64,000 nucleotides of DNA from positions 1-64,000 of the forward strand of contig CAMWMD010000005.1 of assembly GCA_947175265.1 (NCBI GenBank), written 5' to 3'. The notes below the pieces were generated by a model. The model was not told the DNA's origin. It did no database searches and saw only the letters and a list, made by a program, of their open reading frames with translations. Positions 1,369-1,461 of the stretch are shown here, piece by piece; positions within the stretch are counted from its first letter, which is position 1; every line of letters begins with the position of its first letter. The position numbers and the translations under genes are program-made. The DNA is from an uncultured Porphyromonadaceae bacterium. GTDB taxonomy: Bacteria > Bacteroidota > Bacteroidia > Bacteroidales > Muribaculaceae.

Positions 1369-1426
1369 AAAAAAGAAAAACTTACCCTGAGCGCGCTGTT
1401 CTTACGGGAAGCGGGGTAAGTATGTT
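1369..1426 (-). ncRNA. Hairpin RNA with U-tract ahead of Abi_2 (AbiF-RNA-like candidate)
   Basis: Read on the minus strand, the segment after the promoter begins with CTTACCC (1420-1414), which pairs perfectly with GGGTAAG (1387-1381). An inner CGCT/AGCG stem (1413-1410 with 1397-1394) also forms. The hairpin is followed at once by TTTTTCTTTTTT and then the ATG of the Abi_2 gene. This is a rho-independent terminator layout, so most transcripts should end as an RNA of about 50 nt with occasional read-through into the toxin. CTTAC could also pair with the internal GTAAG, giving an alternative fold. A conserved abiF RNA motif upstream of such genes is known to Rfam; identity to that motif is inferred from position and shape only. 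Confidence 0.6.
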
Positions 1427-1430
1427 ACTG

Positions 1431-1461
1431 CAAATTTACCAATTTTTTTTGAAATAACAAA
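1431..1461 (-). promoter_or_regulatory. Promoter of the Abi_2 RNA/gene unit
   Basis: On the minus strand TTTG (1461-1458) is followed after exactly 19 bases by TAAATTTG (1438-1431). This is a perfect match to the Bacteroidota housekeeping promoter (TTTG, 19-21 bases, TAnnTTTG). Transcription would start about 1424-1427, at the base of the hairpin RNA. Confidence 0.8.

Follow-up and report, generated by a model that had tools for sequence, protein, structure and literature searches.

A conserved hairpin RNA in front of an Abi_2/HEPN gene, probably an RNA antitoxin from a divergent branch of abiF RNA

A compact hairpin RNA, encoded directly in front of an Abi_2/HEPN gene, is very probably the RNA antitoxin of that gene's product and a divergent branch of abiF RNA. 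It lies in the window, by which we mean the whole 64,000-nucleotide stretch of DNA analyzed here. We hold with good confidence that it acts both as a type III-like RNA antitoxin and as a leaky terminator of an AbiD/F toxin, so that promoter, RNA and gene would form a self-contained RNA-antitoxin/HEPN-toxin cassette. The initial annotation had proposed an RNA-antitoxin unit here, and that reading is supported because the hairpin covaries among relatives, the cassette has recognizable boundaries and the RNA shows profile-level homology to abiF RNA.

Results

The predicted toxin gene occupies 478-1368 on the minus strand, with its ATG at 1368-1366, its stop codon at 478 and an intact reading frame of 296 amino acids. 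Its product belongs to the Abi_2 (AbiD/AbiF) family, matching PF07751 over profile positions 1-184 of 184 (174.5 bits, 3.7e-51; threshold 25.6 bits), and PADLOC calls it AbiD (3.6e-70). A phmmer comparison with the PDB gave one match, 8vz6 'Abi family protein', over 290 residues (7.6e-66, 225.7 bits); this entry is PbAbiF (Zilberzwige-Tal et al., Cell 2025), which a review describes as a toxin neutralized by RNA (PMC12737573). As judged by sequence comparison, this similarity to a solved structure settles the fold of the protein. The HEPN motif R-x4-H is intact as R206-N-I-C-A-H211, and both R206 and H211 are present in 122 of 122 aligned sequences.

Upstream of this gene, the minus strand reads promoter, two-part hairpin, U-tract of 11-12 nt and then the ATG. 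The promoter is of the Bacteroidota type, with a -33 element TTTG (1458-1461), a spacer of 19 nt and a -7 element TAAATTTG of the form TAnnTTTG (1431-1438); in most relatives 19-21 nt separate a TTTG from the -7 box. Downstream of the promoter stands AACAUACUUACCCCGCUUCCCGUAAGAACAGCGCGCUCAGGGUAAGUUUUUCUUUUUU-AUG. The predicted antitoxin RNA of ~55 nt spans 1369-1426, and our model of the RNA class (R1) has its sole match in the window's genome at 1372-1426, with 83.3 bits. From promoter spacing and invariance we infer that the RNA begins with AACA; AAC is invariant in our alignment of distinct sequences (A1), and the fourth base is A in >90% of its rows.

The arms of the hairpin lie at 1421-1410 and 1397-1380. 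In the outer stem, the 5' arm ACUUACCC (1414-1421) forms eight pairs with the 3' arm GGGUAAGU (1380-1387), and six of the eight show compensatory changes in relatives. The outer stem stacks directly on the inner stem, in which CGCU (1410-1413) and AGCG (1394-1397) form four pairs that are 100% paired, with a single compensatory change, G-C to C-G, in L090. The stem is closed by an apical loop of 12 nt, UCCCGUAAGAAC (1398-1409); in A1 its flanking U, C and GA, C positions are invariant and its tip varies in sequence and length. On the 3' side a one-sided single-stranded bulge of 6 nt, CGCUCA (1388-1393), carries an invariant U at 1390 and sits where abiF RNA has its bulge. The hairpin runs into a U-tract (1369-1379) that abuts the start codon; the tract as written, TTTTTCTTTTTT (1380-1369), has 12 bases, one of which is C, and its first T pairs within the stem. 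This is the geometry of an intrinsic terminator. The arrangement that the initial annotation had described, TTTG-19-TAAATTTG followed by a hairpin and a U-tract ending at the ATG of the HEPN gene in terminator geometry, is thus what a direct reading of the sequence finds.

Folded as a single sequence, the RNA is unremarkable (-13 kcal/mol, z -1.50, with 20 of 200 shuffles equally stable), which would be compatible with an ordinary intrinsic terminator or a chance hairpin beside a promoter, unlinked to the gene. We therefore consider the relatives, for which the DNA 5' of each start codon was read in all fetched loci; the loci of relatives compared were 80 from GTDB genomes (97% to 39% identity), 4 from viral contigs and 30 from whole genomes. 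The motif stands upstream of Abi_2 in 80 of 115 fetched loci, and the hairpin is present in every locus with at least ~42% protein identity and intact upstream DNA. Alignment A1, which is nearly gap-free, comprises 39 distinct sequences. In it 98.7% of stem cells pair, a slightly conservative figure since L101 and L103, whose bulge is one base shorter, count as unpaired there, and the compensatory changes among homologues that the initial annotation had proposed to look for are found in 7 of 12 pairs (0 of 500 shuffles). The covariation score is 0.299, against 0.160 in shuffles (0 of 500), and when the pairing partner is slid by 1 to 3 columns as a control, pairing falls to 25-51%. RNAalifold independently recovers the same fold from the alignment. 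When relatives are compared, the arrangement is far beyond chance. Inner stem, loop flanks (UUC..C and GA.CAG) and bulge U are invariant or close to it, and the outer stem drifts in sequence with its pairing kept. In L112-L114 and L162 an extra small hairpin extends the apical loop of the abiF-type hairpin, from which it follows that the loop tip tolerates insertions.

The same alignment bears on the two-state switch raised in the initial annotation, in which CTTAC would pair either with a GTAAG in the loop or with the GTAAG of the 3' arm and so control read-through. Both GTAAG copies are there, the pairing of CTTAC (1420-1416) with GTAAG (1405-1401) is real in the window sequence, and the C-G pair in columns 11/22 is kept in 25 of 39 relatives. 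This alternative pairing is, however, unconserved and scores like shuffled columns, which do as well in 201 of 500 cases for pairs with a double change and in 155 of 500 for covariation; of the 31 sequences that have letters at its middle pair, 20 break it. We consider a switch of this kind highly improbable.

Conservation extends to the promoter. Among 73 distinct upstream regions, 60 have TAnnTTTG at a distance of 9 nt 5' of the outer stem, and 7 more have it at 10-11 nt. Four Fibrobacterota loci (L097, L099, L101, L103) have a TTGACA-like/TATATT promoter at the same place before the same RNA, which indicates that the RNA and not the promoter sequence is the conserved element. The spacer from stem to ATG is T-rich and 10-25 nt long in all but one of 80 relatives. 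Six loci of the same phylum (L139, L141, L146, L147, L153, L158) have a second, separate terminator hairpin between RNA and toxin gene; the end of the RNA and the terminator can thus be distinct elements. It should also be noted that in L015 and L017 a TAnnTTTG promoter adjoins the start codon of the Abi_2 gene and the locus contains no recognizable RNA, and that the Abi_2 genes L029 and L031 likewise have none that is recognizable; RNA control is hence not universal in the Abi_2 family.

Aligned at the nucleotide level with the closest loci (L032-L042, L069), the window resembles them from 1462-1486, level with the -33 box or just 5' of it, to 320-494, and in nearly all cases to 453-494, around the stop codon at 478; beyond these limits the flanks are unrelated. 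Being confined to promoter, RNA and gene, this similarity delimits a self-contained cassette at 478-1463 on the minus strand. The RNA gene lies directly upstream of the toxin gene, on the same strand and behind the same predicted promoter, as in type III toxin-antitoxin systems and as judged from sequence and promoter conservation. Together with covariation matched in 0 of 500 shuffles and a fixed place before Abi_2 in many genera, the cassette boundaries refute the ordinary terminator or chance hairpin, to which we assign a negligible probability.

The initial annotation had suggested a link to abiF RNA (Rfam RF03085) and had pointed to an Rfam scan as the check. Homology to that RNA is borne out by profile comparison, and membership of the Rfam family is not. 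A scan of the whole window and a relaxed scan of 1200-1800 gave no RF03085 match, whether the cut-off was the gathering threshold or an E-value of 10, so that the window RNA falls short of the at least 37 bits required of a member; at the gathering score, RF03085 likewise matched 0 of 20 other loci of the window RNA class. Sub-threshold Rfam matches in the window to Dicty_Class_I, EBv-sisRNA-1, 6A and SNORD38 were rejected as chance.

The architecture of RF03085 is nevertheless present, with stem, inner stem, loop and one-sided 3' bulge upstream of Abi_2, and a set of intermediates (L009, L011, L013, L018-L020, L139-L160) combines a canonical-like outer stem containing an unpaired A with the CUUCCC...CAGCG loop of the window class. 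A model built from canonical and intermediate abiF RNAs, none from the window class (R2), finds the window RNA at 1375-1424 with 32.7 bits (E 5.3e-7 in 112 kb). Two canonical RNAs, L001 and L022, had been left out of R2 because they were out of bulge register in alignment A2, which was dropped, and serve as independent positives; R2 recovers them at 40.7 and 44.5 bits. A model of canonical abiF RNAs only (R3) matches the intermediates and also the class members L101 (E 1.9e-6) and L103 (E 4e-7). Against the window R3 gave noise only, filters off included; it is through the intermediates, not by a direct match, that the window RNA is tied to RF03085. Since a profile trained without the window class detects it, we conclude from sequence comparison that the window RNA shares descent with abiF RNA and represents a divergent sister class outside the Rfam family as defined.

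The window's genome carries two more Abi_2 genes. One (G000:C11, L001) is directly preceded by an RF03085 match of 39.2 bits; this canonical abiF unit has the layout seen in the window, with a protein 32% identical to that of the window. The other (G000:C2:10987-11901, L166) has, like L026, a hairpin with a UCCCGUAGAAC loop before the gene, with a weak R2 match of 16.7 bits in L166, and is possibly preceded by a further RNA class.

When 82 Abi_2 proteins are placed in a tree, the 51 rows with a window-type RNA form one side of a single branch with support 94. The window-class RNA stands before 51 of 51 rows of that clade and before none outside it, which takes one change on the tree and was equaled in 0 of 500 label shuffles. 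The class spans Bacteroidota to Fibrobacterota, and Bacteroidales isolates with the cassette include Phocaeicola coprophilus DSM 18228 (L081) and Xylanibacter rarus (L044). PbAbiF (8VZ6) groups in this tree with the rows that have a canonical RF03085-type RNA.

RNAs of this kind also occur without a toxin gene. R1 was run against 395 genomes of the phylum, where 50 matches were checked for Abi_2 downstream and 29 had the gene, and against 393 genomes of the order, where 26 of 38 checked matches had it. A few of the remaining matches are contig ends, decayed Abi_2 genes or two false terminators; the latter, L156 and L159, resemble ordinary terminators and were not counted as members. A renewed PF07751 search left 26 of 32 genomes without an Abi_2 match anywhere, a proportion to be read with two limits in mind, namely that most of the 32 were chosen because an RNA lacked its gene and that the search can miss small remnants, as with a piece in G860 seen only by a profile of our own. 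Genome G801, a single contig 99% complete, has two such RNAs and no Abi_2 match. Stand-alone RNAs thus lie mostly in genomes without detectable Abi_2, often with a promoter present. In alignment A6 their cells are 97.7% paired with compensatory changes in 7 of 12 pairs, and in alignment A7, for the stand-alone intermediate type, 97.5% are paired; both alignments were fitted to the model and lean towards structure. Members with covarying stems and no adjoining Abi_2 include L117, L129, L131, L133-L136, L138, L174, L177, L178 and L197, and intermediates of this description include L145, L150, L155, L157, L179, L182, L190, L193, L200 and L204.

The surroundings of some of these RNAs deserve mention, with neighboring genes named by eye from their translations. 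In L046 (460-1010, the same in L003) a second, near-identical promoter and RNA without a toxin gene lies ~710 nt upstream of a complete cassette, and the DNA between the copies encodes a small nucleotidyltransferase-like protein. L160 (1969-2092, minus strand) and L206 (522-633, plus strand) likewise lack a toxin gene; each has two abiF-like RNAs of different class in tandem behind one promoter, closely followed by an hsdR-like frame (type I restriction) that is cut short in L206. In L190 a single RNA stands directly before an hsdR-like gene. A stand-alone abiF-like RNA in L204 (1489-1537, minus strand) directly precedes a HEPN-like and nucleotidyltransferase-like gene pair resembling a type VII toxin-antitoxin system, and in L131 a protein with a RNRVAH HEPN-like motif is encoded upstream of the RNA.

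Discussion

By analogy with characterized abiF systems, the cassette most probably works as follows. One promoter would yield an RNA of ~55 nt, with hairpin and U-tract stopping most transcripts and thereby producing many short RNA copies, and occasional read-through would produce an mRNA encoding the 296-aa HEPN ribonuclease. The short RNA would bind the toxin, as in the PbAbiF dimer with one RNA per subunit, and keep it inactive. Phage infection or stress that halts the RNA supply would then free the toxin to cut RNA and halt growth. Since the ATG follows immediately on hairpin and U-tract, protein bound to the RNA within the read-through mRNA may also block translation of that mRNA. Short transcript, leaky termination, neutralization of the protein by the RNA and trigger are steps that we infer.

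Another explanation would be that the hairpin acts in cis alone, as an attenuator or a protein-bound leader that keeps the HEPN gene's transcription or translation low, with no antitoxin role in trans. Terminator geometry and a U-tract touching the ATG fit this, and for L. lactis abiD1 a structured 5'UTR is reported, together with a short upstream transcript that terminates prematurely (PMC12373285). A plain attenuator would, however, have no need to keep inner stem, loop flanks and bulge invariant, and these are here more conserved than the outer stem, which varies by compensation. Homologous abiF RNAs are moreover reported to bind and neutralize the protein in trans (PMC12373285; PMC12737573), and promoter-bearing copies of the RNA are found without the gene (L174, L197 and, as a second copy, in L046). 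We consider a purely cis-acting role unlikely and favor the RNA antitoxin.

The family's history suggests another possibility. AbiD/F proteins are reported to be ancestors of Cas13, and abiF RNA the forerunner of its guide RNA (PMC12737573); on this ground the RNA might be a guide, as in Cas13, with its loop pairing to a target RNA and the HEPN nuclease directed there. The sole variable single-stranded stretch is, however, the 3-4 nt loop tip, the rest being nearly invariant across phyla, and nothing like a spacer or repeat array is seen, which makes a guide function very improbable for this antitoxin candidate.

Some RNAs of this type stand without an Abi_2 gene, and for this reason restraining the toxin encoded next to it may not be the RNA's only role. 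Tentatively, and with somewhat less than even confidence, we suggest that class and intermediate RNAs of this kind serve as solo antitoxins, immunizing their hosts against incoming AbiD/F toxins or against plasmid or prophage addiction, or that they have been adopted by other defense genes such as the hsdR-like neighbors in L160, L190 and L206. Some may also be relics of lost toxin genes. These toxin-less copies pose a testable question, namely whether bacteria keep antitoxin RNAs as immunity. More broadly, the current Rfam model misses a whole branch of RNAs that matches one protein clade one-to-one over several phyla, and annotators could detect such units with the class model and consensus presented here. 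The contrast between fixed parts (inner stem, loop flanks, bulge) and drifting parts (loop tip, outer stem sequence) also provides a map for binding experiments.

Among known systems, AbiFCd/RCd22 of C. difficile phi027, the best-studied relative, has the layout proposed here: one promoter serves RNA and toxin, transcription mostly stops ahead of the gene, and some of it reads through into the Abi_2 toxin; the toxin is bacteriostatic, and RCd22 neutralizes it by direct binding in cis and in trans, for which stem integrity is required (PMC12373285). As predicted from its sequence, the window would share the promoter, short RNA and termination with read-through before an Abi_2 toxin. RCd22 has two abiF motifs and a separate terminator, with a transcription start 168 nt before the ATG (PMC12373285), whereas in the window a single motif, right up against the ATG, would also serve as the terminator. 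In AbiFr/PbAbiF one RNA is reported to bind each HEPN monomer and bulge nucleotides to block RNase activity, the inhibitory C32/U38 being placed in the bulge (PMC12737573). PbAbiF is ~36% identical to close relatives of the window protein, and its R210/H215 align with R206/H211. With RF03085 abiF RNA as a whole, the window class shares the outer stem, the short inner stem, a pyrimidine-rich loop (GC-C/U-U-C-C/U-C ... GA), the one-sided 3' bulge and the place directly upstream of an Abi_2 gene. It differs in the loop, CUUCCC-N3/4-GA(A/U)CAGCG in place of CCUCUC...GAUGC, in the bulge, CGCUCA in place of UCAAAUC, and in the outer stem, which has one more pair, stacks on the inner stem and runs directly into the U-tract. 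With loop and bulge sequences different from those of canonical abiF RNA, the binding mode may differ as well.
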